This document shows, one piece after another, positions 5,509-40,781 of a stretch of DNA of 42,652 nt. Source of the DNA: a virus. Both the position numbers and the translations under genes were made by a program. The DNA lies in the IMG/VR virus record IMGVR_UViG_3300029787_000104, positions 1-42,652 of that record; one strand, 5' to 3'. The number at the start of each line of letters is the position of its first letter. Within the stretch, counting starts at the first letter, position 1. Under the pieces are notes generated by a model. It was not told the DNA's origin. It saw only the letters and a list, made by a program, of their open reading frames with translations, and did not search any database.

Positions 5509-5529
5509 ATATAGTGGATGTGTTATAAA
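5502..5529 (+). promoter_or_regulatory. Strong sigma70-like promoter for the SNF2 helicase gene
   Basis: TTGACA at 5502-5507, 16 nt, then TATAAA at 5524-5529: a perfect -35 and 5 of 6 at -10. The expected start of transcription near 5536 leaves a leader of about 12 nt before the ATG at 5549. The -35 lies inside the first codons of the opposite gene, so it overlaps the minus-strand promoter. Confidence 0.6.
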
Positions 5530-5536
5530 AAGTCAA
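5508..5536 (-). promoter_or_regulatory. Divergent sigma70-like promoter for the replication operon
   Basis: On the minus strand TTGACT (5536-5531), 17 nt, then TATATA (5513-5508). The predicted transcription start falls 1-2 nt before the ATG at 5499, giving a leaderless message. It occupies nearly the same bases as the plus-strand promoter, so the two should compete for polymerase. Confidence 0.4.
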
Positions 5537-5548
5537 TAGAAAGAAAAC

Positions 5549-7009: not shown

Positions 7010-7483
7010 TTATTCTAACCAAGGAGTGTATTTTGTTTTACCGTCTTCTCCACGAGTGGCGTACAAACACTGGTTTCTATTGTGGTTTGATGAGTAACTA
7101 CAGTGAATCCAACCAGAATTAGGTTCACCCTCTTTGTAGAACTCAAGTATAAGTTGGTCAAATTCTAGCTCTGATTTGATAAACGAAGCTACCTCTTTAT
7201 TATCTCTACCCCAAATTTCAAAGTCAGCTGCAGCTGCATTGTCGTCTGCCACATGTTGTGAGTTTACCGAACTACCGATTGCTATACATAACTCTGCGCA
7301 TCTAAAGCCGCTAGAGATCTGTAATGCTTCATTATAGTGTGAACGTATTGGTTGTAATATGTTTACAGCAAGAGCTTTTAAATTTTCTATTTGTTCTGGA
7401 GACGGATTATTATTTATGCCCTTACGTTCGGCCACTTGGCTTTTGATTAATTCGTCTAAAGTAAAATTAGCTGTTAGTTTCAT
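7010..7483 (-). CDS. Peptidase M15-family endolysin (peptidoglycan endopeptidase)
   Basis: A 157-aa zinc peptidase of the D-Ala-D-Ala/L-Ala-D-Glu M15 type. It starts MKLTANFTLDELIKSQ. The motif SSGFRC (57-62) precedes SQH (H77), AAADFEIWG (D87) and GWIHCSY (H127), the usual His-Asp-His metal ligands. The His-Asp spacing is slightly longer than the common H-x6-D. It lacks a signal peptide, so release through a holin is expected. I chose the ATG at 7483 because it forms an ATGA overlap with the stop of the upstream holin-like gene. The longer frame to 7543 would overlap that gene's membrane segment. The small holin-endolysin pair forms the lysis cassette at the end of the late operon. Confidence 0.85.
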   Translation of the reverse strand: MKLTANFTLDELIKSQVAERKGINNNPSPEQIENLKALAVNILQPIRSHYNEALQISSGFRCAELCIAIGSSVNSQHVADDNAAAADFEIWGRDNKEVASFIKSELEFDQLILEFYKEGEPNSGWIHCSYSSNHNRNQCLYATRGEDGKTKYTPWLE

Positions 7484-7674
7484 CCTAAAAAATGTTGAAA
7501 TAATTGTAAGGCTACAGCCCCCACCGTAGCTAAAAGAACCCAATAGATTTTATCTATCTTGCCACCCAAATCATGAATACCTTTGTGCATGTGTGCAATA
7601 TCTCGTTTAACACCCTTTATATGTCCGTAAAGGGATACAATATGTTCTCTTGTAGTTTTTGGTTCTATAGCCAT
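7480..7674 (-). CDS. Putative holin, XhlA-like with one C-terminal membrane segment
   Basis: A 64-aa protein: a charged helical N-terminus with heptad character (HIKGVKRDIAHMHKGIHDLG) and one C-terminal membrane span (YWVLLATVGAVALQLFQHFL). This is the layout of the XhlA-type haemolysin/holin family. The call rests on that topology and on the ATGA overlap with the endopeptidase gene. Its start overlaps the stop of the 1468-aa gene (TAATG), so it is read through from the virion operon. It would form or assist the membrane lesion that lets the endolysin reach the cell wall. Confidence 0.7.
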   Translation of the reverse strand: MAIEPKTTREHIVSLYGHIKGVKRDIAHMHKGIHDLGGKIDKIYWVLLATVGAVALQLFQHFLG

Positions 7675-10600: not shown

Positions 10601-12080
10601 CTTTTTTTACTTGTTGAGAAACATTTTGTAATGGTTTTGGTAAACTTGCTAGTGTTCTTTGATCTTTAACAAATTCATCAACTTGATCAAAAAAATATTT
10701 TTCTCCAGCAGGAGAGGTTTTATTTCCTTTATACCTTCCTTCAAAATTTTTAGCCATGTCATAAACTTTTCTTTCAAGAGATTCAAAAGCTCTATCAAAT
10801 TTTCTAGCTGTTCCTCTAGCATACAGATTTACTTCTTCATTTGCTCTTTCAATCGTTTTAGGATTTTTAGCATAAGATCTAAACCAAGAAAGAAAATTAT
10901 CTAAACTCTTAGCATCTCTTTTCATAACAGAAGGACTAGTTGCTGAACCTAATCTCCATTCTTCAAATTTAGGAAATTGTTTTCTATTTTTAAAATGCCC
11001 TTTAATAGTAGGAGCTAACAACTTAGTAAGTGTCCAGTCTGTTGCATTCCGAATAGCGTTTGATGTAGCTTTAACTGCAGGAGCTGCTGCATCTCTTGAT
11101 AAAACATAACTAACTGGTTTAAACAAAGCATAGTTTATTCCTTTTGCACCTATTCTAGCTGTTTGAGTTAAAGCCCATTTAGGACCAAGATACTTATAAC
11201 CAAGTTGTAAACCTTTTCCCATAAGTGGAAAACCACCACCCAATATAGTTCCTTCAACCCCATATTTAACTTTATTTTTAAAAACAGCCGCAGCTTTTTT
11301 TCTTCCAGTCAAACCTTTTGTGTCTGAAGGTTGAGTGAAAGGAATAGGTGTAATGGGTCCTCTATCAGGTTCCGATGCAATAAAATCTGTAACAGCACCA
11401 ACACTTCCCCACTCTAAAGCTCGTCTTGCAATCTTACTTGTTTTAGTAGATTTATTTATTCCTAAAAATTTATAAGCAGGAGCTAAAGCATTAGCTCTCA
11501 TAATTAATTTAGTAATTACAGTTCCTGGTATACCATATTGAACCCCTAAAGAAGTTAATTCACCTCTCCATGTTTCTGGTTCATCAGGTTTAATTCTTTC
11601 ATCATTTAATGCCTCTTCTACAGCGTTTGTAAAATCTGTGTTTAAAGAAAAATCAATGGGAGTTGTGATTAAAGGAGTAAGACCTCCAGTCGTTTTCCAA
11701 ACTCCTGTTTCTAAACCTTTTGCAATTTCATCAAGACCACTTATATAGTCTTTTTCTTTCATACCTTTAGACTCACGTATAAATTTGTTAATATTATAAA
11801 AAGGTGGTTTTTCTTTACCTGTTCTAGAATCTTTTGCTGGTAGTAAAGTTTGAGCAAGATATTTTGTAGGGTTTAATATGTTAGAGAGAGTTGTTACACC
11901 AACTTGTTTAGCGGTATCATCTAAACCAAAAAAATATTTAACTGGTTTTTTTGGTTCAGTATATTCTTCTAGCGCAGATAGAACTGCTTTTTGAAAATCA
12001 TTATAATTTTCTAATTGTTTTTTCTTTTCTTTTTCTGGAGCAACGTCTACTTTATACCGCTCGTAAGGTTTTATGGCCAT
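7674..12080 (-). CDS. Large internal virion / DNA-ejection protein (1468 aa)
   Basis: This is the longest gene of the window. The product is largely helical and charged, with an Ala/Gly-rich hydrophobic part around residues 960-1110 (containing LPLGNFISFPAEIIRTSTTN and ITGSALTLYGIGKTMSALSEYL). The region KTLYSPVTQVRNVTSASTFA (about residue 780) and the tail GLTRTQTALLSPEEQEI resemble very large proteins I remember in marine phages that are taken to be internal virion or polyvalent proteins. I see no clear catalytic motif, including no lytic transglycosylase signature. Its place after the nozzle and before lysis fits a capsid-core protein ejected with the DNA. The exact role is unknown. Confidence 0.65.
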   Translation of the reverse strand: MAIKPYERYKVDVAPEKEKKKQLENYNDFQKAVLSALEEYTEPKKPVKYFFGLDDTAKQVGVTTLSNILNPTKYLAQTLLPAKDSRTGKEKPPFYNINKFIRESKGMKEKDYISGLDEIAKGLETGVWKTTGGLTPLITTPIDFSLNTDFTNAVEEALNDERIKPDEPETWRGELTSLGVQYGIPGTVITKLIMRANALAPAYKFLGINKSTKTSKIARRALEWGSVGAVTDFIASEPDRGPITPIPFTQPSDTKGLTGRKKAAAVFKNKVKYGVEGTILGGGFPLMGKGLQLGYKYLGPKWALTQTARIGAKGINYALFKPVSYVLSRDAAAPAVKATSNAIRNATDWTLTKLLAPTIKGHFKNRKQFPKFEEWRLGSATSPSVMKRDAKSLDNFLSWFRSYAKNPKTIERANEEVNLYARGTARKFDRAFESLERKVYDMAKNFEGRYKGNKTSPAGEKYFFDQVDEFVKDQRTLASLPKPLQNVSQQVKKELVKTMDAFRRALPKGKKGDEVTKDVESVLRGKTSDYMVRSFKIFTNENYVPSEKIVNSATEWLKKNIVMKDKGKRELARKFYPNMKPDGAYTASAKEMVDEIMHTGRGDNVNPLETLKLISKRILQDKKYKFLNTGEELPTAIKNLLGQERNLKFSVLNTATNAMTQTMAKNASDFIARTGLKEGWLFKSRDAARNVYRAPQRINKIPRLGLLKTDLEGLYTSPEFAQMFQGLGGTLKYFVENAFFRHMLQMKTGVQIGKTLYSPVTQVRNVTSASTFALNAGHVGGRASVTDAMRIVMNDIFKAGKDRVVSNANEIIAPEQFNDFVQKLTRLGVIDENIVAMELKGVLDDIKVGKINTLDGLFDSLIKMTPTDKVARVYAGGDNLWKIYGWNFDKSQLLSAGMNSVDEVADLFKHIGEPFSKTNVATGVAKNLDDALDEFAAYMIRNSYPTYSKVPPVIQALRRLPLGNFISFPAEIIRTSTTNIGLGLKLASHPNSAIRQMGIRRITGSALTLYGIGKTMSALSEYLTGTSESQQDAYKRSFAAPWNRVANLIPLKGWNNGENLMINFTYFMPYDVIQRPLEAALKQMKDQDLNPNEVDNFLLNALFKPEGPIQEFLEPFVSEPLGFDRLIDVTVRDGRKPGGGRVYTRNDDLDDKITKSFAYVLDGIKPGVVLTSEKIGAGLRQDVSRGGKPVNTFDELIALMTGIRLIRIDTKKDLGYYASEFNSLSRDIDETDGFYTPENYTQNTPSLMVKKFKEMQEDDFRLQKDMYMRIQDMKLLGVDEFTIRQILTKKRVNANKINNLMAGIFTPTTYSKPRFDNKVRAIEERLEKDSAASEAYEYFVNRDFVFPEFELNNVILENQFKELFPQGYNPDKETYQKNSKGQTLFDENGNPIKEKGFIEKQMDKIVPSIKQIITPGSPMSKKINTPPLPKTEMPKVATIPQETNPISGLTRTQTALLSPEEQEIAKKI

Positions 12081-13138
12081 TAAACCTCCTGTGGTAGGAC
12101 TAGGTTTACGTTGTATTTAGAATTAAATATGTCTACGTCTTGTTGAGTTTGTATCATTGCAAAATCTTCTAAAGCTTCTGCACTTTGAGAAAGAAGTGTT
12201 ACAATATCATCACTTATTGATTCAGGTAATCTTTGTCTTAATTCATCATAAGATATATCCATGGCGTCAGCTTCAGGCATTTCTGCCATAGGTTCTTCAA
12301 TAGTTTCTTCTTCCATACTTACATCTTCGACTAATGAACCTTGTTGATAACCAACTCTACCACCTTTAGCTAAAGATGTTTCTCCACCTTTTACAATAAT
12401 TTCTCTAATCTCTATAATAGCATCTTGAATCATTTGTTGTTGTCCTTCTGGAGTACTAGGATATTTTAAAACTCTGTCACCATCTTCATTTGTAACCATT
12501 TCTCTTTTCTTACTTGGTAAAATACTATTAACTAATGACCCAATAACATCTTTAGATCCTAAGAATTGTTCTACTAATGGATCTCTTTTTCTCAATTGAT
12601 TAATGGTTGTATTTGCCAACAATAATTCTGTTTCTTCTTGTTGACTTAACCCTTCTTCTTTTTGTTTTTTTGTTAGTTTAAGTTTTTTTTCAGTAGCAAC
12701 TAAAAGGTTCTCCAACATTACTTGATCTTTGTAAAGTCTACCACTTGATTCACCACTTAAAATATCTGCTTCCGATTCTATTAAAGATTTAAAAATATCA
12801 GACTTAGCTTCAGTTCTAGTTTTATCTTGAACATCACCTCTTGCTAAAAATCTTTGAGTAGGTCCTCTTAAAGCTTTAGAAGCTGTTCCAAAAATACCTC
12901 CTTGTGGTTCAGTATTAGCTAATTCTATACCAAAATCCATTAAGTACCTGCCAAAATCTCTTTTAGAATCTCTTTCAGGATAAAATTTTTCTGTAATTTC
13001 TTCTGCTTGTTCATACATAGCTGGATAATCAACTCTACCAGCTGTTTTATAATTTTGTCTTGGTTTGTCTAATCCAGAAGTAATTCCGCTTGTAGAACCA
13101 CCCTTACGAAACAAAGGTCTATTTAATACTCTACTCAT
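12080..13138 (-). CDS. Virion-associated protein with GGRVGY motif (352 aa)
   Basis: A helical, charged protein. The N-terminus is basic and Gly-rich (RPLFRKGGSTSGITSGLDK). A KKLKLTKKQKEEGLSQQEE segment looks coiled-coil. Late in the protein (12338-12373) comes LAKGGRVGYQQG, followed by a very acidic stretch (EDVSMEEETIEEPMAEMPEA). The Gly-Gly motif is shared with several other proteins here and separates basic-helical from acidic parts. TAATG overlaps at both ends tie it to the 1468-aa and 267-aa genes. An internal virion protein is likely from position only. Confidence 0.6.
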   Translation of the reverse strand: MSRVLNRPLFRKGGSTSGITSGLDKPRQNYKTAGRVDYPAMYEQAEEITEKFYPERDSKRDFGRYLMDFGIELANTEPQGGIFGTASKALRGPTQRFLARGDVQDKTRTEAKSDIFKSLIESEADILSGESSGRLYKDQVMLENLLVATEKKLKLTKKQKEEGLSQQEETELLLANTTINQLRKRDPLVEQFLGSKDVIGSLVNSILPSKKREMVTNEDGDRVLKYPSTPEGQQQMIQDAIIEIREIIVKGGETSLAKGGRVGYQQGSLVEDVSMEEETIEEPMAEMPEADAMDISYDELRQRLPESISDDIVTLLSQSAEALEDFAMIQTQQDVDIFNSKYNVNLVLPQEV

Positions 13139-29963: not shown

Positions 29964-30935
29964 TTACGCTCCTCCCGTGTTTTTTAGTTGTTTTGCGTAC
30001 TCTTCGAGTGGCACTCCTAATTTATTAGCTATTGCTACCTGTGAAGAAGTGAGTTTCACAGTTTTGCGACCGGGTTTAACGCTTCTTGAAGCTGAAGCCA
30101 CCGTCTGAACGGGCTCGGTCGAACGCTTGGTATTAGTTTTACCAAATTTATGCGGAAAGTCAACACGGATTCTTTTATCAATTTCTGCATAGTATTCATC
30201 AGTCTGTGGATCAAAACCTTCTTTATCCACTAAATCCTTATGAATCTCGAACGCGGTGAATGTCATGGCTCTATCTTGTCCAAACCATGTATTCTTTGAT
30301 GCCCAACCTTCAGCTTTAGGATCTTGAGTAGGCATTTGATTAGCAGGTTGTCTTGGTTCTCTAACATCTGCAGGTTTTGCAGGTGTTTTTGCTGCTCTAA
30401 TTTCCTTACTCTGTTCTAACTTAGCATTATCAAATGCTAGTTTAGCGATCTTTTTATTAGCTTCTACTTGAGCGTTTGCATCTCCAAGTTCAATGGCTTT
30501 TGCTAAATCTTTTTGAGCAGAATCCATTCCATCTTTAATGCTTGATTCAAACTTTTTAATATAGTCTGCATCGGTTTTTTCAAAACGTTTTTCTACGTCT
30601 TGTCTTCGTTCTTCAATCGCTCTTGCATATTCTGTAGCGGCATCTCTTTGTCTTTCCGCTTCACGCATTTTACGTGTAAGTTTAGCAATCCTCGATTGAA
30701 CGCCTTTACTATATTCTTCTAGTTTGTCATCTTCTTTTATTGGTTGTTCTTTTTTTTCTTCTTGTACATCTATTTGTGTTTCTTGTTCCGTGGTTCTTGT
30801 TTCTTCTGTCTTGGTTTGAGCAGCTTCCGGCTTGGACTCTGCTTCAGTCTCTTTGACGTTTTCTTCCGGTAAATCAACCTCGGCCCCTGGGCCAGAAGTA
30901 TCAATATCTACGGTTTTCTTTTCTTCGTCAGGCAT
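29964..30935 (-). CDS. Capsid scaffolding protein (323 aa)
   Basis: A highly charged protein: a very acidic disordered first 70 residues (Glu/Thr/Gln-rich), a long coiled-coil middle (RIAKLTRKMREAERQRDAAT through residue 200), a linker, and a basic C-terminal segment (SRSVKPGRKTVKLTSSQVAI) ending in a helix. The acidic-helical-basic pattern and its place just before the capsid gene fit a scaffold that guides procapsid assembly and then leaves. I see no protease domain, so removal may occur without cleavage. AGGAGG site present. Confidence 0.85.
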   Translation of the reverse strand: MPDEEKKTVDIDTSGPGAEVDLPEENVKETEAESKPEAAQTKTEETRTTEQETQIDVQEEKKEQPIKEDDKLEEYSKGVQSRIAKLTRKMREAERQRDAATEYARAIEERRQDVEKRFEKTDADYIKKFESSIKDGMDSAQKDLAKAIELGDANAQVEANKKIAKLAFDNAKLEQSKEIRAAKTPAKPADVREPRQPANQMPTQDPKAEGWASKNTWFGQDRAMTFTAFEIHKDLVDKEGFDPQTDEYYAEIDKRIRVDFPHKFGKTNTKRSTEPVQTVASASRSVKPGRKTVKLTSSQVAIANKLGVPLEEYAKQLKNTGGA

Positions 30936-30952: not shown

Positions 30953-31396
30953 TTAATATGCGTGTAGGATATCTTTAGGATCCTTCACGGTTGCCAAAAC
31001 TTCATCTTCATTTAGAAGACGAACTTCTCCTCCTTCGATTTGAATACGCGATCCTGCGTATCTTGCAAAAACGACCCAATCGCCTTTTTTGCACCATGGG
31101 CCACTTGGATATCTCTCTTTATCCGCATAACATTGCGGGCCCATTGCCAAAACTAATCCTGTTTGTGACGCTACTTGTTGACGTTCTATAACAGATTCAG
31201 TTATTAACAATCCTCCTTTTGTTTTTTCATCCATTTTGAATGGTAAAACAAGAATTCTCCAACCTGTTGGTTGTGGTAATTTATTAGTATCTTTTGTAAT
31301 TTCTTTTTTAGGTTCTGAATTATATTTTTCTTCTAACGCTAATTTACGTTTTGGGATTTCGTTTATTGATGTCGACGATGGTTCCTTTATTGTCAT
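30953..31396 (-). CDS. GroES-like co-chaperonin (147 aa)
   Basis: The core from residue 44 reads PTGWRILVLPFKMDEKTKGG, then VLAMGPQCYADKERYPSGPW, KGDWVVFARYAGSRIQIEGG and EVRLLNEDEVLATV, matching Cpn10/GroES proteins of marine phages. KTKGGLLITESV corresponds to the mobile loop that binds GroEL. No GroEL gene is present, so it should work with the host chaperonin to fold virion proteins, probably the capsid. The ATG at 31396 has an AAGGAG site four bases before it. An upstream TTG in frame is not needed. The N-terminal 43 residues are an unusual extra extension. The gene overlaps the upstream 80-aa gene by 53 nt. Confidence 0.85.
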   Translation of the reverse strand: MTIKEPSSTSINEIPKRKLALEEKYNSEPKKEITKDTNKLPQPTGWRILVLPFKMDEKTKGGLLITESVIERQQVASQTGLVLAMGPQCYADKERYPSGPWCKKGDWVVFARYAGSRIQIEGGEVRLLNEDEVLATVKDPKDILHAY

Positions 31397-31586
31397 TTTG
31401 CTCCTTATCTTCAAGCAGGCTAGAGAGCTCCTGTTTTAATGCCTCATAGGCATTGATCTGTCCTATTATATAGTTGTATTTTTCCATATTGTCAATACCC
31501 CCAGACGTAACAACTATGGATAATTCTTGTAATCTTTTTAAGATATATCTATTAATTTTTACTATTACACTTTCTAAACTAGCCAT
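31344..31586 (-). CDS. Small helical protein (80 aa) overlapping the GroES-like gene
   Basis: Mostly helical (SLESVIVKINRYILKRLQEL, KYNYIIGQINAYEALKQELS) with a polar C-terminal tail. The central NMEKYNYIIGQINAYEALK resembles short marine phage proteins near the capsid genes. Function unknown. Its last 53 nt are read in another frame by the GroES-like gene. Confidence 0.6.
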   Translation of the reverse strand: MASLESVIVKINRYILKRLQELSIVVTSGGIDNMEKYNYIIGQINAYEALKQELSSLLEDKEQNDNKGTIVDINKRNPKT

Positions 31587-31595
31587 TAATACTTT

Positions 31596-31790
31596 CTATA
31601 ATAAACCTTTATAATATTTTCTATAACTTGGATTACTTACTTTTTTACCAGCAAGATCTCCAGAAATATAAGAACCAATATATCCTCCGTTGGCAGCATT
31701 CACAACTCCGTCTAATACTTTAGCTTGTTTAGCGTGAGCTTTAGATGCTTTTTTAAGTTTGGCAGAAACTGATTTAATTTTTTCTTTCAT
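31596..31790 (-). CDS. Small basic protein (64 aa)
   Basis: Lys-rich N-terminal helix (KSVSAKLKKASKAHAKQAKV), a Gly/Ser middle (NGGYIGSYISGDLAGKK) and an aromatic basic end (YRKYYKGLL). It is part of the run of basic proteins between portal and scaffold. The first eight residues and 25 nt across the start are identical to those of the oxygenase gene (19527-19551 against 31767-31791). A nucleic-acid-binding or virion-core role is inferred from charge only. Confidence 0.6.
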   Translation of the reverse strand: MKEKIKSVSAKLKKASKAHAKQAKVLDGVVNAANGGYIGSYISGDLAGKKVSNPSYRKYYKGLL

Positions 31791-32105
31791 TTATCTATCT
31801 GTTTTTAAAATTCTTTTAGTAAACACGTCAGCGTCTTTTTCAGCTCTTTTTACTTTTCTTAAATTTTTTGCTGAACCCACCGCAAGATCTCTACGACCTG
31901 CATCTTTAGCTTTTTTTATTGTTTCTTTAGCTGCAGCTTCTGTTTCAGCAAGGCTTCTTTTTGATTTACCCATGCCTTTAAGATTACGAACTTTATATTT
32001 TCCAATGTCAGTAGATTTAGGTTTTACGCCAGTAATAGTTTTACCTACTTTGCCTTTTCGACCAAGCATGCCAAAACCTCTTTTAGCTATACCAAATATA
32101 CCCAT
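31791..32105 (-). CDS. Basic protein with GIAKRG N-terminal motif (104 aa)
   Basis: Starts MGIFGIAKRGFGMLGRKGK, closely like MAGIGIAKRGLGLLKKFEK of the 166-aa protein and MAGYGIQIKGMGRAMMKKG of the 197-aa protein in the same cassette. The rest is Lys/Arg/Ala-rich and helical (AAAKETIKKAKDAGRRDLAV). Probably a paralogue family sharing a localisation or packaging signal at the N-terminus. Function unknown. Its start overlaps the stop of the 197-aa gene at 32105. Confidence 0.6.
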   Translation of the reverse strand: MGIFGIAKRGFGMLGRKGKVGKTITGVKPKSTDIGKYKVRNLKGMGKSKRSLAETEAAAKETIKKAKDAGRRDLAVGSAKNLRKVKRAEKDADVFTKRILKTDR

Positions 32106-32698
32106 TATTTTTTAGCTGTTTTTGCTGATTGTTTTAAAGCTTTATCGGTAACAGAACCTTTTCCAGGTTTACTTGTTCCTCTTTTTTTAGCTCTGTTCAT
32201 ATAATAGTACAGACCTTTTTTAGCAACTCTGCCATCTTTAGTTTTGTGATAGCCTTTAGGAACTCTTCCACCTTTTTTCATGCCTCTATTTAGTTCGCTG
32301 ATAACTCTTCTTTTTTCAGCTCTTCTATTAGGGTTCATTTTTTCAGAATCAATTCTACCCATTTCTTCTAACAGGTTAGCTCTGCCGCCACCCATCATCT
32401 TTGTTCTCATTCCTGGTTTAGCTTTAGGCATTAATCTTTTTCTTTTTTCATCTTTTCCTATGACAGGCGGATTACCTCTTGGTCTTGGAGCGGGTCTTGT
32501 TTTATAGTCTGATTTTCTTTTTTTTTCTACTACTTTAGCATAATCTCTAACCGTACCACCTTTTGCAAAAACACCTCTACCTTTTAAAACATCAGCTCTA
32601 GTAACTTTACCATCGCCTGTTAAATCAGGAAAAGCTTTTCCACCTTTTTTCATCATTGCTCTTCCCATGCCTTTTATTTGTATTCCGTATCCAGCCAT
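32105..32698 (-). CDS. Basic virion-cassette protein with EF-hand/dockerin-like loop and GG motifs (197 aa)
   Basis: After the GIQIKG start, residues 24-36 read PDLTGDGKVTRAD, a D-x-T-G-D-G-x-V-T-x-x-D loop like one dockerin/EF-hand calcium site (D25, T27, D29, T33, D36). FAKGGTVRDYAK and MKKGGRVPKGYH carry the shared Gly-Gly motif. The tail KKGLYYYMNRAKKRGTSKPG is basic and aromatic. I remember this combination in marine phage ORFs. It may bind metal and nucleic acid in the virion, but this is unproven. Confidence 0.65.
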   Translation of the reverse strand: MAGYGIQIKGMGRAMMKKGGKAFPDLTGDGKVTRADVLKGRGVFAKGGTVRDYAKVVEKKRKSDYKTRPAPRPRGNPPVIGKDEKRKRLMPKAKPGMRTKMMGGGRANLLEEMGRIDSEKMNPNRRAEKRRVISELNRGMKKGGRVPKGYHKTKDGRVAKKGLYYYMNRAKKRGTSKPGKGSVTDKALKQSAKTAKK

Positions 32699-32706
32699 AA
32701 AGCTCC

Positions 32707-32937
32707 TTATTTATTAATTTTTTGGTTTGGACGTTTTCCAAATTTTCCGTAAGACTCGTCTCTTCTAGCTTTGAAAGATTGTTTCTTGCCAGATTCTTTT
32801 CCACGTCTTGCGCTAATGGATTCATCCTCACGATCTTTATAACCTTGTTTCTTCATTTTGACTGTGCCGCCTTTTTTCATAGCCGCTTTACCGCCAAATC
32901 TTGGTTTGTAAGGTCTTGTTCCAAAATCGTTTCTCAT
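32707..32937 (-). CDS. Small basic protein with RRGKESGKKQSFKARRDES motif (76 aa)
   Basis: The segment ISARRGKESGKKQSFKARRD (residues 41-60) and its preceding KDREDES are a pattern I recall in many marine phage small ORFs. It also has AMKKGGTVKMKKQG, a GG-motif variant. Strongly positive and probably disordered. Likely nucleic-acid binding or packaged, by composition only. Confidence 0.6.
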   Translation of the reverse strand: MRNDFGTRPYKPRFGGKAAMKKGGTVKMKKQGYKDREDESISARRGKESGKKQSFKARRDESYGKFGKRPNQKINK

Positions 32938-32946
32938 AATTACTCC

Positions 32947-33138
32947 TTATATGTAGTACTTTGTTTTTTTCCTACGATTGGCCATCACTTTACCACAACC
33001 GGTTGCTATTGCAACCCTTGTTGGTAAAACTCTACCACCTTTTTTATACTCTTTTTCCCATCGTTTTGCAATCTTAGGAAGATTGGCATGCATATATTTT
33101 CTCTGCTTTTCAGACTTGAAAGGCACTAGCATTTCCAT
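32947..33138 (-). CDS. Small conserved phage protein with FKSEKQRKYMHANLPKIAKRW motif (63 aa)
   Basis: The first 30 residues (VPFKSEKQRKYMHANLPKIA) match a short motif seen in numerous phage head-region proteins. A GG variant (YKKGGRVLPTRVAI) and an ending GCGKVMANRRKKTKY follow, the latter also recurrent in marine phages. It looks like two short motifs joined by the Gly-Gly linker. Function unknown. Its start lies inside the end of the 166-aa gene (13-nt overlap). Confidence 0.7.
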   Translation of the reverse strand: MEMLVPFKSEKQRKYMHANLPKIAKRWEKEYKKGGRVLPTRVAIATGCGKVMANRRKKTKYYI

Positions 33139-33626
33139 CTTCTTCTAGCTTGTCTTATTCTAGAATTAGGGTCATTTCTAGTTTTAGCTGAAGATCGTTT
33201 TAATTGTCCTAATGATCTGGCACAATAAGATTTTCTACGTTTAGCTGATTTAGAACCAGCTTTTACTTTACCTGTAACAGCTGTTTTTAACTTAGATCCA
33301 GGGTTTGCTCTTCTATATGCAGCAACACCAGCCTGTGTCATACCAGCTCCTGACTTTGTAGATCTGTAATTCTTCTTGTTTCTAGCTATTGGGTTTTCTG
33401 CTCTACCACCTGTTGCTTTTCTAACTCTTTGATCTTTTTCTATTGAGCTAGGCATAGCTGCAGATGCTGCTAGGGTTCCCCCTACTAATTTAGAATATCC
33501 TTTAGCTTTCTCTATTGCTTTTGGAGAGTTCATCTCCTTAATCATTTTTTCAGAAACTTTATCTGCTTTTTTTTCAAATTTTTTAAGAAGTCCTAATCCT
33601 CTTTTAGCTATTCCTATTCCAGCCAT
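33126..33626 (-). CDS. Basic protein with DUF6321-like C-terminal domain (166 aa)
   Basis: N-terminal GIAKRG motif shared with two neighbours, then a Lys/Ala-rich helix. The C-terminal 85 residues are a recognisable conserved small phage domain: STKSGAGMTQAGVAAYRRAN, then AVTGKVKAGSKSAKRRKSYC and a final ARRRWKC. Two cysteines (in KSYCAR and WKC) are fixed in the family as I remember it. I believe this is DUF6321, whose function is unknown. The charge suggests nucleic-acid binding. TATGGRAEN is a weak GG variant. TAATG overlap with the upstream gene. Confidence 0.7.
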   Translation of the reverse strand: MAGIGIAKRGLGLLKKFEKKADKVSEKMIKEMNSPKAIEKAKGYSKLVGGTLAASAAMPSSIEKDQRVRKATGGRAENPIARNKKNYRSTKSGAGMTQAGVAAYRRANPGSKLKTAVTGKVKAGSKSAKRRKSYCARSLGQLKRSSAKTRNDPNSRIRQARRRWKC

Positions 33627-34012
33627 TATTTTTTACCATTCCTAAAAATTTGAGTTCCCTTAATTCCAAAAATGCTCGCCACGACAAGCACCCATAAATT
33701 TGTGAACCATTTTGGAAGCTCATGAAAATACTCAAAAAAGAGTTTTACCTTTTCCATAGCTGCGGGATCATCTGACATCACGGCCCACATGAGCACCACG
33801 ATAGGCGCCGAAATTATCACGAGGACAAATTCATCCTTATAATCGTTTTGACGAGCCTCTAAAAGTTTGCCCTGGTAAGTTTCTTCACCACGAGCCATTT
33901 TTTCTGCATGCATTAATTGTGCATCAGACATGGCCATCTTTGTCTTCTGGCGGTTAGCGTATATCTTACTGCCAGCTTGCAAAGCGATTTTTGCTAAACT
34001 GAACCAAGCCAT
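33626..34012 (-). CDS. Membrane protein with two predicted spans, holin-like candidate (128 aa)
   Basis: A helical soluble N-terminus (about residues 1-60) is followed by two hydrophobic segments, FVLVIISAPIVVLMWAVMSD and WFTNLWVLVVASIFGIKGTQ, separated by an amphipathic stretch (KLFFEYFHELPK). The layout resembles Holin_3TM-type proteins, but the first helix is not clearly membrane-spanning. It sits near the portal and not next to the endolysin, so a virion membrane protein or second holin are both possible. Confidence 0.6.
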   Translation of the reverse strand: MAWFSLAKIALQAGSKIYANRQKTKMAMSDAQLMHAEKMARGEETYQGKLLEARQNDYKDEFVLVIISAPIVVLMWAVMSDDPAAMEKVKLFFEYFHELPKWFTNLWVLVVASIFGIKGTQIFRNGKK

Positions 34013-34013
34013 A

Positions 34014-34184
34014 TTAGTACCAAGTAGCTGATTGTTTTCTAGCTTTACCTGTTCCTTTTACAGTGACTTTATCACCAGTAGGAATAACGTTTCTAGCTCT
34101 AGTTACGTTAGCTTTACTTCTCTCATCATACTTAACGTTCTGACTTGGGATAGTAGCAGATTTTTGTTTTTTATAGTTTTCCAT
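34014..34184 (-). CDS. Small basic protein before the portal (56 aa)
   Basis: Reads MENYKKQKSATIPSQNVKYD, continues ERSKANVTRARNVIPTGDKV and ends KGTGKARKQSATWY. An AGGAG site lies six bases before the ATG at 34184. It fills the gap between portal and membrane-protein genes exactly. VTVKGTGKA-type endings are familiar from marine phage small ORFs. Function unknown; basic, probably part of the same cassette. Confidence 0.7.
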   Translation of the reverse strand: MENYKKQKSATIPSQNVKYDERSKANVTRARNVIPTGDKVTVKGTGKARKQSATWY

Positions 34185-34201: not shown

Positions 34202-36703
34202 TTAAGATTTAGGGCCTTTCAAGGTTTTTACGTCCTTGGCCTTCATCCTATCTGACTGTAGTTTAACTCCAGCAGATAATAAAGCTTTATCCATAGTGGT
34301 ATCAGCTCTAAGCTCTGCTAACTCTTCGTTTAGTTCTAGTTTATCTTCAGTCAAATCTTTGTTTTGGACTAATTTAGCTTTGTCCAGATCAATTCTAGCG
34401 TCTGTTTCTTGAGCTTTACGTGCATTCTCCATAGCTCTTAAATCTACTTCTCTAGATTTAAGTTTAAGTAAAGGATCATGATCAAATTGTGAAGTAATTT
34501 TCTTTTCTTCCTTCATAAATTCTTCAGTCATCTCTGCTATTAAAATTGCTTTTCTAGCTTCAATTTTTTGAGTTACTTCTTCTAACTGAGCAGCTGCTTC
34601 ACGATTAATTGGCGCTTGTTGTTGAAGCATTGCTAGTTGTTGTATCTCGTCTCTAAATTCTAATTGAATTTGTTCTTGAGCCATTAAACTAATATGCTCT
34701 AAACAGTTTTTTTGTAATGAAGCCATTACTTGTGGTTGGTTTCTCACCATGTTAGTTGCCATAAAATTTAAGTGAGCAGTAATATGTGCTCTGTGATCCT
34801 GCCCTGGAAATGCATTAAAAGGTTTTGCAGATAAAGCATCAATATTTTCAATTGCTGGATCTTTAGGTGTGTTTGGAGGAGGTGGTGGTAAAATTTGATC
34901 AATATTTTTTATACCAATAGCTTCATACATTTTTCTGTAAGCCATATACATGTTATGCATTTGAGGATTAGACATTGCTAACTGTAATTCAGTTTGAGCA
35001 ATTGTAATTCTTTGAGACATAGAAAAGATATTAGGATCTGCTACAGGTATAATATCTATTCTCTCATCAAAATCAGCTTGTTTAATAACTCTTGCGCCAC
35101 CTACAACATCATAAGGATATTCTGGTGGTAGATAAGTAGATACAATTTTAGCTAATAATTTAAATTCTTGTTTCATAGAAAAATATAATCTCTTGTGAAT
35201 TGCTGACATAACTTTAGACCCTCTTTCCATAAGAGCCATAGTTGTTCCAACAGCAGCTTGTTGATTACCTTCTCCAACTTGTAATTCAGAAATAGCTGCA
35301 AATCTTTGACCAGCTTGTACAACAATACCCATTAACGACAATAAAGTTTGCGATGGTTCTTTGTAAGGAAGAGGTAAGAAAGCATCTTTTAAACTTCCAC
35401 CTGGTGCATCTACATCTTTAAATTCACCTGGTTGGATAGGAGATGCCTCATCTCTTACTCTTACGCCTCTTTGTTTAAAACCTGCAGGTAAATTAGATAA
35501 TGTACCGGCATCTAATAATTGGCGGAGAGCGACTGTTGCAGTTCTACTCAATCCGCCAATCATATGTATGAGTCCAAATCCATAGAATCCTAGTCCAGGC
35601 AGAAATTTAAAATGGACAAAATATTCGATTCTTTGTTTTTTTGGATCATTGGGCGCAAAGTTCCTTCTTATCGAAAGAACCTGATTGCTACCTTCTTCAA
35701 CAGTTACGATGTAGGGTAGCTTGATACCAGTCGGTTCCCCGTCTGGACCAATATCTTCAAAACCTTCTAGGTCTAAATTTATATGACACTCTAGCAAAGT
35801 GTAAATAGGTTGTTGTCTTCCAGTTTTTTCTGTTCCTTCTAATTCTCTCTCTTTGTCTTTTAATTGATCTTGAGAAATGTTGTAGCCAGGAGGTCCTAAA
35901 TCTACATCAGAATAAAAACCAGCCACTTGTTGTTTTCTTAATTCGTTTTCAGAAATTTTAACTCTGTGAATAACTGCCTCTGCATCTTCTAAGCTTGTAG
36001 CTGTGTAAGGAACAACTACATCTTCTGCAGGAACAAATTTAGAAACAGCTCTACCTACTAAATCATCATAGTAAACTTTTTTAAATGTAGATCCAGCTAA
36101 TGGTAAATGAAATAACATAGAATCAAACTCTGGTTCGTATTCTTTCATACGATCCATAATTAAATAGTTCATGTAATTTTTTACTCTGTTAGATTGTTGT
36201 TCTTTTTGAGGAGTTACCATTCCTAGGATCTGAGTTCTAACTGGTCCATCTGCTGGTAATAATTCTTTGTATGCTGTTGCTTGAAACTGAGTTACTGCTT
36301 CTGCAAGAACAGGGTGCGTTGCACCTGATGCTCCTTGAAACGGTTCGTTTCTTAATTCGTATTTAAATCCAAGTAAGTCAAGCCCTTCAATATAAGTTCT
36401 CTCCCATTCTTTTCTAGAATTTTTATAATCCACATAATTTTCTTTAAGTCGTGAACCAATTGGAGATGTTATTTCATCGGGTAATAAATCTGCTAAGTTA
36501 TCAAAATGATTTTCTGTGCCTGGTACGTTTATTGCGCCAGGTTCAAAATTAATAGTTGCACCACCATCTTCTTCTGGTGTTACTTCTACAGGTGATCTTT
36601 CGCTAATTTGCTCTTCCGCCACTGCTGTCTGAATTTCTTCCGCGCCTGGAACTTTAACTTCAGATCGTTTTGTGTTCGGGAGCTCTTTGTCTATTTCTGC
36701 CAT
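34202..36703 (-). CDS. Portal protein (833 aa)
   Basis: A long portal of the marine podovirus/P22-like type. After an acidic head, residues 90-250 carry WERTYIEGLDLLGFKYELRN, EPFQGASGATHPVLAEAVTQ and HLPLAGSTFKKVYYDDLVGR, typical of portal cores. The wing and stem follow. Gln/Glu-rich coiled coils (residues 660-820, for example LAMLQQQAPINREAAAQLEE) make a long C-terminal barrel-like region as in P22 gp1. It forms the dodecameric DNA gate on which TerL docks. AGGAG site present. Neighbours fit a standard packaging module. Confidence 0.85.
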   Translation of the reverse strand: MAEIDKELPNTKRSEVKVPGAEEIQTAVAEEQISERSPVEVTPEEDGGATINFEPGAINVPGTENHFDNLADLLPDEITSPIGSRLKENYVDYKNSRKEWERTYIEGLDLLGFKYELRNEPFQGASGATHPVLAEAVTQFQATAYKELLPADGPVRTQILGMVTPQKEQQSNRVKNYMNYLIMDRMKEYEPEFDSMLFHLPLAGSTFKKVYYDDLVGRAVSKFVPAEDVVVPYTATSLEDAEAVIHRVKISENELRKQQVAGFYSDVDLGPPGYNISQDQLKDKERELEGTEKTGRQQPIYTLLECHINLDLEGFEDIGPDGEPTGIKLPYIVTVEEGSNQVLSIRRNFAPNDPKKQRIEYFVHFKFLPGLGFYGFGLIHMIGGLSRTATVALRQLLDAGTLSNLPAGFKQRGVRVRDEASPIQPGEFKDVDAPGGSLKDAFLPLPYKEPSQTLLSLMGIVVQAGQRFAAISELQVGEGNQQAAVGTTMALMERGSKVMSAIHKRLYFSMKQEFKLLAKIVSTYLPPEYPYDVVGGARVIKQADFDERIDIIPVADPNIFSMSQRITIAQTELQLAMSNPQMHNMYMAYRKMYEAIGIKNIDQILPPPPPNTPKDPAIENIDALSAKPFNAFPGQDHRAHITAHLNFMATNMVRNQPQVMASLQKNCLEHISLMAQEQIQLEFRDEIQQLAMLQQQAPINREAAAQLEEVTQKIEARKAILIAEMTEEFMKEEKKITSQFDHDPLLKLKSREVDLRAMENARKAQETDARIDLDKAKLVQNKDLTEDKLELNEELAELRADTTMDKALLSAGVKLQSDRMKAKDVKTLKGPKS

Positions 36704-36711
36704 TTAAACTC

Positions 36712-38874
36712 CTATAAGTCTGTAACACGATTGAAGAGATAAGACAAGCCCTCTCCTTGTGGCGTGGGTCCTGATTCTGGTGCAATAGCACTTGGTCTAC
36801 GAACATCGGCTATGCCGCCTCTGGCTGCAGCGAACCCATAATAGTCTTCAGGTTCAGCTTTTCTCTTTTTTTGTCTCATTTCTTTGTCTCTCGTTATATC
36901 ATCTTGGGCTTTAAATAATTTATTATAAGCTTCATTAGCCATCTCAGTATCAAAATATCTTTCACCAATACCAGGTGGTAAATAAGGATCTGTTTTTACA
37001 AAAGGTTGTATACTTTTTTCAAACCTTTGTGTGGCTCCTTTTAATTGATCAGGATACAACATACTATCCTCAGGTCCCATAAACAGATTCTCTTGATCTT
37101 CTATTTCTTGTAATTGTTTCGCTCTTTGGTCAGCATCAAACGCTAGTCCAGCTTTTTCTCCTCCATATTTTACCACTTCATCTCTTTCACTTTGTCCAGT
37201 AAAACCAAAAGTAGCATAGTTTATTATTCTTGATGTTGATTCTCCAGAACCATAATCTGCTAATGCAAAAGGAACTGCAAACGCTATCTCACCTGCAATC
37301 GCTGCGGGACCCAATTGAGTAGTCATAAAAGTTTTAAGTCCTCGTAATTTTGTTGCAGCTTTTATCGCTTGCTTTCCTGAACCGGTTTTAGCTATTTCTC
37401 TTTGCTTAGCAATATCATCAAGATAAGCTCTTGGGTTATTACAACTTGCTACTCCACCATTGGCTCTAGTTACTTTACATTTAAAACCTTGAGCCTTCAT
37501 TTGTTTTGCTAAAGATAGTTCTACTACTTTAGATTTTTGTCCTTTAGTAACTTTTGCAAAATCTTTATCTAATAATTTTTCTCCTTCTCTTAAACCTGCA
37601 AGAGATTTAGATTTATCAAAACCTACATATTTAGGTTTTCTTTTTCCTGGTTCTGAAATTGGAAAACCAAGATAACCCCCATAACCTGCTCTTCTTAATT
37701 TTTCCTGTTCTCTTCTCATAAAAGCATTTATTTGCTGTAGTCTTCTTTGATTTTTTACAGGTCTTCTCAATAAAATATTTTGTTCTTTAATTAATTCATT
37801 CCTTCTCTCCTCTATTTGTCTAACAACACCTTTTCTATTAACATCTCGATCTAACAACATTAATCTTCTTAAAGTTTCTTTTTCTCTTTTAGGAAAAGGG
37901 TGGTGAACATCAAGAGATGTGTCTGTTAGTTTTTTTGATATTGCTCTTTTAGTCCTTCTTGGATCTCTTTTTTTATCTTCCATTCTTTTGTATCTTTCAC
38001 GCTGTAAAATATCTTCTGGTGTTTTTCTTGGCTGACCCTTTCTTGGAAAAGGGTTTGCTCTTACAGTTGCAGCAGCTTTTGCTTGTGCCTGTGCTTTTAA
38101 TATTGGATTTGTTTTATAAGGCGAGGGTGCAACTACTTTACCTGATTCTTTTAAATATTCGGATATTTGTGATTTACGAAGATCAGCATTTTTCATTTTT
38201 GATAAATTTTTAGTTTTTTCATCGGTCTGTATTTTGTTATCAATAGCCAACACTGTTGGGGGTTTTCCTAATTCTTTTGTTAGGTCTGTGTGAGCTTGTA
38301 GTATGGCTGCTTTTACGTTGCCTCTAAGTTTAGTTAATTCTAAAACATTTTTTTCTACATATTTTTTAACCACAGGAAGAGCAGGTTTACTTTCTCCCGG
38401 AAATGCATTTCTAACTTCTTCAATACTAGGAGGTCTTCCTAATTTTTCTTTTGCTGCATTATAATATCTAATTACTTTTTGTTCTGTAGGGCTAGCTTTA
38501 GCTCTAAGCTCTTCTACATATGTTTTATACTCTGGAGTCATAACCCTTCTTCTACCATCCGAATATGTTGGGTCAGCAACACTAATAAATTTTTTGCCTT
38601 TAAATTCTTTTCTCGCTTGAACAGTAGGAGATAGAACACGGCTTCCATCTTTGTATCCTGGTTTTGTAACATTAGGAACAGAAATACCTTCTTCTCTTAA
38701 AATGTCTACAACGTTAGGTTCATCACCAGTTATACCTGACCCTACTTCATCATAAAATTCTTGAGCACCAAATTGGAGAAATCTTTTTGCTAGTTGCATG
38801 TTCCGTGATTCAGGGTACACGAACCCCGGCTCTTGGTAAAATTTTACAATGTTTTTTAATTTATCGGGATTCAT
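36712..38874 (-). CDS. Large multidomain protein with HTH-like repeats and an HNH-like motif (720 aa)
   Basis: From the N-terminus: a helical region; two helix-turn-helix-like repeats (KEKLGRPPSIEEVRNAFPG, about 143-160, and TKELGKPPTVLAIDNKI, about 199-215); a very basic section; DVHHPFPKREKETLRRLML followed by LDRDVNRK (H324, H325, N346), an HNH-nuclease-like pattern; a Cys pair in GFKCKVTRANGGVASC; a hydrophobic stretch (GPAAIAGEIAFAVPFALADY); and a C-terminal ARGGIADVRRPSAIAPESGP. This layout suggests a polyvalent-type protein packed in the head and injected with DNA. Nuclease activity is not proven: the motif lacks a clear second metal ligand. Coupled by TAATG to the 635-aa gene. Confidence 0.55.
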   Translation of the reverse strand: MNPDKLKNIVKFYQEPGFVYPESRNMQLAKRFLQFGAQEFYDEVGSGITGDEPNVVDILREEGISVPNVTKPGYKDGSRVLSPTVQARKEFKGKKFISVADPTYSDGRRRVMTPEYKTYVEELRAKASPTEQKVIRYYNAAKEKLGRPPSIEEVRNAFPGESKPALPVVKKYVEKNVLELTKLRGNVKAAILQAHTDLTKELGKPPTVLAIDNKIQTDEKTKNLSKMKNADLRKSQISEYLKESGKVVAPSPYKTNPILKAQAQAKAAATVRANPFPRKGQPRKTPEDILQRERYKRMEDKKRDPRRTKRAISKKLTDTSLDVHHPFPKREKETLRRLMLLDRDVNRKGVVRQIEERRNELIKEQNILLRRPVKNQRRLQQINAFMRREQEKLRRAGYGGYLGFPISEPGKRKPKYVGFDKSKSLAGLREGEKLLDKDFAKVTKGQKSKVVELSLAKQMKAQGFKCKVTRANGGVASCNNPRAYLDDIAKQREIAKTGSGKQAIKAATKLRGLKTFMTTQLGPAAIAGEIAFAVPFALADYGSGESTSRIINYATFGFTGQSERDEVVKYGGEKAGLAFDADQRAKQLQEIEDQENLFMGPEDSMLYPDQLKGATQRFEKSIQPFVKTDPYLPPGIGERYFDTEMANEAYNKLFKAQDDITRDKEMRQKKRKAEPEDYYGFAAARGGIADVRRPSAIAPESGPTPQGEGLSYLFNRVTDL

Positions 38875-40781
38875 TATTCTCCTAATAATTTTGCTAGACC
38901 ACCAGATGCAAATTCATCCATTTCTTCAAATGCTTGTTCAGCTTCCATTTCTGCTCTGCCTTCAGCAAATTGCTGTGATTCTCTTTTTTTCGTACCTTTT
39001 ATATTAAACTCATCTGTGTTCTTGCCTGTTGCATATTTTTCAACTTCAGAAAAATCAGATCCGTGCTCTCCATAATTACTAAAACTTGAATCTTCATAAT
39101 TTACACTTTCTCCGTCTCCGGTATATTCTGCTTCTTCTACACCAAACTCGTCTGTTTCTTTTTTACCTCTTGCTGGTCCTTCTTCTATAACTTCACCTTT
39201 TCTTAATTCTATTCTTGCTGGTTGTCCGTTATGTCCGTCAACCCATCCGTGTTTACCCATTCCAACATCAACTAAAGTGTCTCCAGTGGTTAAATCTACT
39301 TCTACAATAACATCTGTTTTACTTTCAGGTAGTTTTGCTTTTTTAACTATTGTTCTTTCAACAGTTGAATAAGTCTCAGTTACATCTTCTCCTTCTTTCA
39401 TTACTCTTTCAACAAGTTTAGGAAACCATTCTGGCATTCCTTTAGCATCAGATTTTTTAACAGTCTCAGCTACTTTTATAGCGGTAGATGTTTTCTTACC
39501 ACCAAACAATCCCATTTTAAGTCCACCTATACCAGCACCAACACCACCCATTAATTTTAAAAATGCTCTTCTAGCTTTATCAATGCCACCAGCTGCAAAA
39601 CCTATTCTTCCGCCTTCTGCTAATCTAAATCTTTCTGGTAAAACAAATCTTTGTAAAAATTCTATACCACCTGTTGGTGTTTCTATTTCAGTTGTCTTTT
39701 TAGGAATAAAAGGCATAACTGGTTTTACAGGTTTAACAATTCCTACTTCATTATCTCCATAAGAAATTGTTGGAGGAGTTGAAGGAGTACGTCCACTTGT
39801 CAGATAATTTCTAACAGTATCAGCAAGTATTCCAATTGATTGTGCAGTTCTAAGTCTATTGTAGCCAGGAATATTCGCTCTTGCAAAAATATCCAAACCA
39901 CTTAATAAAGGGTTCTGTCTTACTGGTTGAAATCCTCTATTATCATCAAATTGATCAATGTTGTCGTCTACACTTTCTATTGAAATAGGTCCAGCACCAC
40001 TAACTGCATCTGGTAAATTAAAATTTTCATTTCCATCATTAGAACTACTAGAGGGACTAGGGTTGTTTTGACTGTCTGCTGGAGAACCTCCTACATAAAA
40101 TCCTTTTCTAAGTGGTCCACCTTCACCTAACATGTAAGCTAATCCGCCGCCTGCCATACCTTTAGGATCTAAATCATCAAAATTAAATTCTAATTGATCA
40201 CTAACTTCTACCTCTTCAAAAGGGTTAGATTGTTTTTTAGGATAAAGAATATCTTGTAAGTCCTTAACTAATCCTTCTCTGCTTCTATTTCCCATTGTAG
40301 AAAACATAAGTCCTTTTTGAATGTCATCAATGTCTTGAGTAATAACATTTCGTCCTTTAGGATATTTAGCAAGGTTTTTGTAAATAGATAAAACTTTACC
40401 GATTGGCATAGCCATTTTATCAACATCTTTGTATCTGTTAAAAGCAATTTGAAAAGCACCTTCTTTATTTTTATCATCCATTCTTTCTTTGAATTTAGCA
40501 AACGACTCTGATCTTTCGTCTTGAGCTTTAACTGCTTTTTCAAACTTAGGATCTACCATTGGTTTCTTTTTAGTAGTCTTTGGTGCTGTGCCGATTGTTA
40601 TATCTCCTCTTTCAATCATCTCATTAATTTCATCACCAAAACCTTTTTTAAATTGAAAAGGTAAAACGTTACTAGGTTGAGGTGTTGCGTCGGCTTGTTT
40701 TTTTAATTGTGACAATTCACCAGGAGTTGGCGATCTGCCTTTTGCTTTTTGAAATGCTCTTATAAGTTTAAATAAACTCAT
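38874..40781 (-). CDS. Multidomain virion-cassette protein with GGRIGF and Tat-like RRAFLK segment (635 aa)
   Basis: The N-terminal 200 residues are helical and charged (starting LFKLIRAFQKAKGRSPTPGE). GG motifs occur at 211-220 (GGGLAYMLGE), 390-395 (GGRIGF) and the very C-terminus (ASGGLAKLLGE). Directly after GGRIGF comes ARRAFLKLMGGVGAGIGGLK (residues 403-422), which resembles a twin-arginine signal: RR, then FLK, then a Gly-rich hydrophobic stretch. A beta domain (VIVEVDLTTGDTLVDVGMGK) and an acidic tail follow. Function unknown. Coupled between TerL and the 720-aa gene by TAATG on both sides. Confidence 0.6.
   Translation of the reverse strand: MSLFKLIRAFQKAKGRSPTPGELSQLKKQADATPQPSNVLPFQFKKGFGDEINEMIERGDITIGTAPKTTKKKPMVDPKFEKAVKAQDERSESFAKFKERMDDKNKEGAFQIAFNRYKDVDKMAMPIGKVLSIYKNLAKYPKGRNVITQDIDDIQKGLMFSTMGNRSREGLVKDLQDILYPKKQSNPFEEVEVSDQLEFNFDDLDPKGMAGGGLAYMLGEGGPLRKGFYVGGSPADSQNNPSPSSSSNDGNENFNLPDAVSGAGPISIESVDDNIDQFDDNRGFQPVRQNPLLSGLDIFARANIPGYNRLRTAQSIGILADTVRNYLTSGRTPSTPPTISYGDNEVGIVKPVKPVMPFIPKKTTEIETPTGGIEFLQRFVLPERFRLAEGGRIGFAAGGIDKARRAFLKLMGGVGAGIGGLKMGLFGGKKTSTAIKVAETVKKSDAKGMPEWFPKLVERVMKEGEDVTETYSTVERTIVKKAKLPESKTDVIVEVDLTTGDTLVDVGMGKHGWVDGHNGQPARIELRKGEVIEEGPARGKKETDEFGVEEAEYTGDGESVNYEDSSFSNYGEHGSDFSEVEKYATGKNTDEFNIKGTKKRESQQFAEGRAEMEAEQAFEEMDEFASGGLAKLLGE

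Follow-up and report, generated by a model that had tools for sequence, protein, structure and literature searches.

A modular cassette of small basic proteins beside the portal gene of a pelagiphage contig, with a probable place inside the phage head

Results

A run of basic genes next to the portal

The IMG/VR record IMGVR_UViG_3300029787_000104 is a partial phage genome, a 42.65-kb contig that we analyzed over its whole length of 42,652 nucleotides (hereafter, the window), and it carries beside its portal gene a cassette of small proteins rich in lysine and arginine. An original prediction, made from the sequence alone, had listed seven such proteins and suggested that they neutralize packaged DNA, form an internal core of the head, or are injected into the host. 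We found all seven open reading frames (ORFs) in the place given, on the - strand, neighbors overlapping or lying no more than 9 bases apart, and a 128-amino-acid (aa) membrane protein as the sole interruption. The cassette had been described as lying between portal and scaffold; this is accurate on the portal side, but the other border is formed by an 80-aa ORF and a GroES gene, after which the scaffold follows.

34202 to 36703, - strand: portal protein (PF23899, 1.4e-18; phrog_1216, 4.5e-72), upstream border of the cassette
34014 to 34184, - strand: 56-aa basic ORF of the w56 family, first after the portal, its place kept in most relatives
33626 to 34012, - strand: 128-aa membrane protein (phrog_2524), a probable holin
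33126 to 33626, - strand: 166-aa ORF with Gly-rich basic leader MAGIGIAKRGLGLLKK, disordered linker and C-terminal DUF6321 domain (aa ~86-166)
32947 to 33138, - strand: 63-aa ORF, FKSEKQRRYMHANLPKIAKRWEKEY module fused to a C-terminal GCGKVMxNRRKKTK module
32707 to 32937, - strand: 76-aa ORF (w76), YKDREDES module; in relatives usually directly after the membrane protein
32105 to 32698, - strand: 197-aa ORF, leader MAGYGIQIKGMGRAMMKK, dockerin-like DLTGDGKVTRAD loop, ANLLEE module and KGLYYYMN module
31791 to 32105, - strand: 104-aa ORF, leader MGIFGIAKRGFGMLGRKGK and a fast-evolving basic tail
31596 to 31790, - strand: 64-aa ORF (w64), LKKASKxH module fused to a YIGSYISGDLAGxxVxNxSYxKYY module
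31344 to 31586, - strand: 80-aa neutral ORF (w80), last cassette gene before GroES
30953 to 31414, - strand: GroES-like co-chaperonin (phrog_3188, 4e-21), downstream border of the cassette
29964 to 30935, - strand: putative scaffold (phrog_28737, a weak head-scaffold match)

Read along the - strand, the order is TerL, a 635-aa protein, a 720-aa protein, portal, the ORFs of 56, 128 (membrane), 166, 63, 76, 197, 104, 64, and 80 aa, GroES, and scaffold, with the major capsid protein further on. The seven basic ORFs have net charges of +0.16 to +0.22 per residue and isoelectric points of 10.1-11.4, and none of the remaining predicted window genes exceeds +0.06 per residue. That 7 of the 48 window genes should fall within 8 consecutive positions in this way has an exact p of 3.9e-6. 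Searches of Pfam, PHROGs, and PDB sequences gave no function for the cassette ORFs and a single label, DUF6321, which itself stands for unknown function.

Since short ORFs in AT-rich DNA are often lysine-rich, the cassette could in principle consist of antisense or spurious frames that are basic by composition. This is refuted for the 56-, 63-, 76-, 128-, and 166-aa ORFs, which show a codon-position-3 excess and many synonymous changes relative to their relatives. The 104-, 197-, and 64-aa ORFs are conserved mostly as short motifs, and the families recur in hundreds of phages. We conclude that the cassette ORFs are real, conserved genes, and we give an artefact practically no weight.

The slot is kept among relatives while its content changes

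The window portal is 64% identical to that of HTVC027P, 63% to that of 023Pt_psg01, 54% to that of HTVC023P, and 47% to that of Phage DSL-LC04, and these identities to Pelagibacter phages lead us to assign the window to the HTVC023P/HTVC027P pelagiphage group. The host of these phages is SAR11, an ocean bacterium, and HTVC023P-type phages rank among the most abundant in the ocean.

We compared the slot across 80 IMG/VR contigs retrieved via the portal. A net charge of at least +0.10 per residue was found in 91% of 290 slot ORFs (median, +0.20), versus 4% of 285 other ORFs. Complete relatives follow the order portal, (small ORF), membrane protein, 2 to 12 small basic ORFs, (80-aa ORF), GroES, scaffold. 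The synteny comparison with related metagenome contigs that the original prediction had called for therefore reveals a slot that is kept and a content that varies, even between close relatives, although the w56, membrane, w76, w64, and w80 genes tend to stay put. The basic set is present in HTVC027P (gp44-gp54) and 023Pt_psg01 and reduced in HTVC023P and DSL-LC04 (the HTVC027P, psg01, and HTVC023P records are complete genomes). The HTVC027P and psg01 cassettes share slot, families, and a homologous membrane protein with that of the window but differ in module set and order. Such a set had been called unusual for a podovirus-like genome; given the 80 relatives, HTVC027P, and psg01, it is instead the rule in this group. 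The main text of PMC12753301 gives no transcription timing for HTVC027P gp44-gp54.

The slot can also hold other cargo, as in locus L061, where a 194-aa oxygenase-like gene (5511-6095; HxD...H style) lies inside a basic cassette.

Short basic modules are shuffled and fused across marine phages

We built profiles for about 15 short motifs and searched them in some 240 loci. The corresponding modules, most of them rich in lysine and arginine, are gained, lost, reordered, and fused across marine phages. Several that are joined in the window occur either alone or fused, namely, FKSEKQRR and GCGKVM (63-aa ORF), LKKASKxH and YIGSY (64-aa ORF), and the EF-loop, ANLLEE, and KGLYYY (197-aa ORF); other fusions combine PSAYAN with GCGKVM, WVDIG with YIGSY, WIQK with YIGSY, and KGLYAN with DUF6321. 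Loci retrieved by DUF6321 alone, many from unrelated phages, very often contain PSAYAN, WVDIG, and DUF6321 in that order, then LKKASKxH with RRLYTDEN, with the same holin-like membrane protein upstream. A query for WVDIG plus PSAYAN retrieved 367 annotated phage records. The dockerin/EF-hand-like loop of the 197-aa ORF, FPDLTGDGKVTRADVLKGRGV, recurs at the start or end of several relatives' basic cassette ORFs and may bind calcium.

The most widespread link to other phages is the DUF6321 domain of the 166-aa ORF, which matches PF19846 at 1.1e-11 (45.6 bits against a cut-off of 28.5) and phrog_10346 at 6e-24. Its motif is Cys-...-W-x-C; C53 and W82-x-C84 are invariant in one alignment (A1), and in another (A3) the Cys is invariant and the W and C nearly so. 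An AlphaFold2 model of the domain has four helices, with a predicted local distance difference test score mostly of 84-95, and depicts a small all-helical unit preceded by a disordered linker. Foldseek returned no PDB match for this model, and its BFVD matches were DUF6321 proteins only, among them the S-SCSM1 virion protein. The domain is present in 336 annotated phage records, mostly cyanophages. A bacterial origin seems unlikely, as the matches among genome contigs are mainly to marine metagenome-assembled or single-amplified genome contigs and most likely represent phage DNA.

Cyanophage versions of the modules bear head-targeting features

In T4-like cyanophages, WVDIG, PSAYAN, and DUF6321 are combined in one protein, T4-GC119, whose gene adjoins the terminase genes (P-SSM2_123, S-SM1_115, the S-B43 "structural protein," and S-SCSM1_29). 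The modules are those of the marine cassettes, but they form one fused precursor by the terminase genes rather than separate ORFs by the portal. We found this exact architecture in 62 ORFs of cyanophage-type loci.

Several of these proteins begin in a way familiar from phage T4, whose internal proteins IPII and IPIII start with MKTYQEFIAE|A (T4 record) and whose gp21 protease cleaves after L/I-x-E (PMC9026906). The DUF6321 protein S-SZBM1_192 starts with MKTFKQYITE|A, and DUF6321 ORFs from IMG/VR with MKTFSEYLNE|DWQKK, MKSFRQYISE|K, MKSFSQYILE|G, or MKTFSQFMAE|G. A T4-type capsid-targeting leader was found in five DUF6321 ORFs (including S-SZBM1_192 and L379), and most others have an internal site only. 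In these cyanophages, the DUF6321 gene is followed, or overlapped at its end, by an ORF that often starts with MK[SN]FxQFLSE|S.

The site pattern was first spotted in named phages, and we therefore excluded these from a held-out test on IMG/VR loci. In 39 of 59 internal DUF6321 domains, an [LIVMF]-x-E triplet ends 1-3 residues upstream of the A/D-W with which the domain begins, in 34 cases at one offset, compared with a mean of 2.4 and a maximum of 9 over 5000 draws of a local-position null. Among borders that carry the E, 74% have a hydrophobic residue at P3, compared with 7% at P2 and 30% at P4; with a single exception, P1' is occupied by G, V, S, or A. Sites also mark the borders of PSAYAN (23/31 versus 5.0 expected) and WVDIG (16/35 versus 5.5). 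Stand-alone DUF6321 ORFs often begin with MAK[TS]P immediately before the same A-W, so that a module border corresponds to either a start codon or a protease site. The cyanophage homologues, then, have a predicted prohead-protease cleavage site at the border of the mature domain.

Part of the virion data points in the same direction. Mass spectrometry detected gp137 (4 unique peptides, 4.1%) and gp160 (7, 13.1%) in the S-CREM2 virion (PMC10665884, Table 3). These are the only S-CREM2 ORFs with modules (DUF6321 in gp137, WVDIG plus PSAYAN in gp160), and the chance that both would be among the 52 of 219 ORFs detected is 0.056. S-SCSM1_29 is labeled as a virion protein in its record, the S-SCSM1 virion comprising 45 proteins by mass spectrometry; our module scan covered about two thirds of that genome. 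Overall, three of four checkable module proteins were detected in virions, for which background rates give a chance of ~0.02, a figure weakened by the late-gene position of these genes. Although plentiful in the virion, S-SZBM1_195 proved to be something other than a basic module protein.

The structure of P-SCSP1u bears on where in the virion such proteins could reside. Its capsid shell consists of the major capsid protein only, and the modeled portal-tail of gp16/22/23/28 (PMC10575957). In its close relative P-SCSP1k, DUF6321 and KGLYAN ORFs lie between the capsid and adaptor genes. Given that shell and portal-tail model contain neither protein, they would be in the head interior or have no virion role; with gene numbering inferred from P-SCSP1k, this would argue against a decoration role in P-SCSP1u.

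Other cyanophage proteins show related features. The cytidylyltransferase/NMNAT detected in the S-CREM2 virion (locus L087, 34609-35469) starts with the T4-type leader MKNFSSFLTE|A, and we propose that such a leader would explain why NMNAT is found repeatedly in cyanophage virions. A protein of ~105 aa without assigned function, right after DUF6321 in many cyanophages (L090, 4201-4518), starts with MKSFKSFLSE|S, also of T4 type. S-SZBM1_194 (locus L090, 1454-3577), a 708-aa basic protein between TerS and TerL, has further repeated motifs and an KSVKQQRFFGMVRAAQKGE start, shares an RGDFWHPDP.. block with S-SM1_115, and is probably another head precursor.

A shared leader and no detectable protease in pelagiphages

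No match to an S77/S78 prohead protease was found in the window, itself a partial genome, or in HTVC027P, psg01, or HTVC023P; S-SZBM1 has an S77 protease (1e-36). The lack of a detectable protease in the pelagiphages is consistent with modules that are encoded as individual ORFs and not as one precursor to be cleaved.

A Gly-rich basic leader, M-G/A-x-x-G-x-A-K/R-R-G-x-G (MAGIGIAKRGLGLLKK, MGIFGIAKRGFGMLGRK, MAGYGIQIKGMGRAMMKK), is common to three ORFs of the window and several in its relatives, whose bodies are otherwise unrelated. This pattern, defined after the sequences were seen, starts 22 of 148 nonredundant cassette ORFs versus 3 of 308 other ORFs (Fisher p, 5e-9); at internal positions, the cassette ORFs seldom contain it. 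We propose that it may serve as a targeting signal.

A probable holin in the cassette

The 128-aa membrane protein retains 92-98% aa identity across genomes despite many synonymous differences between them. In other pelagiphages, its homologues lie directly after or overlap lysozyme or peptidase M15 genes, and for this reason we read it as probably a holin, located in the cassette by chance; the window copy is not adjacent to the endolysin. Membership in GTA_holin_3TM (PF11351) was rejected, as no profile match was obtained for 33626-34012, for two homologues, or for a Vibrio protein labeled DUF3154. Elsewhere in the window, a peptidase M15 endolysin (7010-7674; PF08291, 1.9e-16; TTG start) overlaps a 64-aa ORF that has a membrane helix at its C-terminal end and may be a second holin. 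The cassette protein may therefore not be the sole holin.

Discussion

We propose that the cassette proteins are internal head (ejection) proteins, encoded as a modular set and associated with packaged DNA, and we put the probability of this at roughly 0.6; for the window phage itself, virion location and DNA binding are putative, as is the manner of entry into the head. The original idea of an internal core or of injected proteins is thereby partly supported, by the leaders and protease sites of the cyanophage homologues, the S-CREM2 virion proteins, the S-SCSM1 label, and the P-SCSP1u model. In cyanophages, a precursor would enter the prohead core, where the S77 protease would cut it into individual basic peptides, which would remain with the packaged DNA. 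Pelagiphages of this group, with no detectable protease, would encode the same peptides in separate ORFs of the head operon; their entry into the procapsid would follow another route, possibly via the shared leader together with binding of scaffold, portal, or DNA. Once there, they could screen part of the DNA charge, and their small size would permit ejection with the genome.

Several observations weigh against this proposal. The virion data are all from cyanophages, and the S-CREM2 peptides cover a small part of gp137 and need not derive from DUF6321. S-SZBM1_192, despite its leader, is missing from the 30 proteins detected in its virion (PMC9146016), and the S-SM1 GC119 protein is labeled hypothetical although that virion was analyzed. 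Among the window's own modules, the cyanophage site analysis covers DUF6321 only, the rest being tied to it by synteny and fusion, and common inheritance of the domain might partly account for the border E, although variation is seen at P2 and not at P3. None of the seven window ORFs starts with the T4-type leader MK[TS][FY]xx[FYL]xxE, and the pelagiphage leader was, as noted, a post hoc pattern. In other pelagiphages, moreover, the neighbors of the cassette are lysis genes and not head genes; in HTVC010P-type phages and HTVC033P, the modules lie away from head genes.

This last arrangement would suit late intracellular proteins that are never packaged but act on host or phage RNA and DNA or on ribosomes, the head operon providing late timing only. 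High charge and conserved Cys pairs are compatible with RNA or DNA binding, and HTVC027P infection yields ribosome-deprived cells with rRNA loss, for which unknown proteins have been invoked (PMC11066056). Yet in cyanophages these modules come with capsid-targeting leaders and prohead-protease sites and have been detected in virions, and we consider unpackaged binders unlikely. Lysis genes suggest another role, in which the holin-like protein and the cationic proteins act jointly at lysis: the membrane protein accompanies the modules, and in HTVC033P it overlaps lysozyme, with an amidase next to DUF6321. However, the M15 endolysin of the window is 26 kb away, cyanophage modules occur without the membrane protein, and we noticed no transmembrane or signal features in the basic ORFs, which makes a joint lysis function highly improbable.

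It is also conceivable that the proteins are packaged, as we propose, but serve chiefly as injected effectors (anti-restriction, host takeover), with charge neutralization incidental. T4 IPI is such an injected restriction inhibitor (PMC9026906), the rapid change of cassette content among close relatives and the many alternative modules resemble an arms-race repertoire, and cyanophage virions also package enzymes such as NMNAT, which in S-CREM2 has this type of leader as well. Against this, no known inhibitor fold was recognized, Foldseek having found no PDB match for the DUF6321 model, and the modules are mostly very basic, whereas the T4 internal proteins have almost no net charge (+0.02 to +0.05 per residue). 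We regard this variant of the internal head protein proposal as somewhat doubtful.

The T4 internal proteins IPI, IPII, and IPIII are a known kind of small head-interior protein, and the leader MK[TS][FY]xx[FY]xxE| and the L/I-x-E cleavage motif are common to them and the cyanophage homologues. We saw no sequence relation between them and the modules, however, and the cassette proteins are far more basic and encoded in a shuffled multi-ORF cassette, in a window with neither a T4-type leader nor a detectable S77/S78 protease. New here are the module set, the layout, and probably the leader, as well as the T4-type leaders and prohead-protease sites on cyanophage versions of the modules. In character, the cassette proteins, with their putative DNA binding, also recall small or basic protamine-like proteins of eukaryotic viruses, such as ascovirus P64, a cationic virion protein thought to condense DNA (PMC6163548).

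More tentatively, and at somewhat less than even odds, basic internal head modules might form a mobile toolkit common to marine tailed phages and be delivered by two routes: in cyanomyoviruses, as a polyprotein that has a T4-type targeting leader and is cut in the prohead, and in pelagiphages, as a multi-ORF cassette with a Gly-rich leader and no prohead protease. If so, the cassette would be the counterpart of the T4 internal protein system in phages that lack the protease, and its leader would represent a capsid-targeting signal of a new kind. A large share of the small genes of HTVC023P-type phages, as of cyanophages, is without function. Our proposal would give a dozen recurrent modules of this kind a testable place and role inside the phage head, among them DUF6321, here tied to head-interior targeting. 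It would also account for the occurrence of the same modules as separate genes in some phages and as one gene in others. Furthermore, it predicts precise cleavage sites in cyanophage virions, which existing mass spectra could check.

Other genes of the window

Two large proteins without assigned function lie between portal and TerL, at 36712-38874 (720 aa, net +45) and 38874-40781 (635 aa), the former with the C-terminal motif GGIAD...AIAPESGPTPQGEGLSYL; in relatives, other large genes fill this interval (PcfJ-like in DSL-LC04). A 1468-aa protein at 7674-12080 (isoelectric point 9.5, net +45, no PHROG match) is a candidate large internal or tail-tip protein. The next protein, at 12080-13138, has the N-terminus MSRVLNRPLFRKGGSTSGITSGL...GGRV, and similar GG-rich motifs (KKGGxV) occur in cassette ORFs. 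The sole large + strand gene amid the - strand genes, at 5549-6979, has a helicase-like look with a GTGKT motif.

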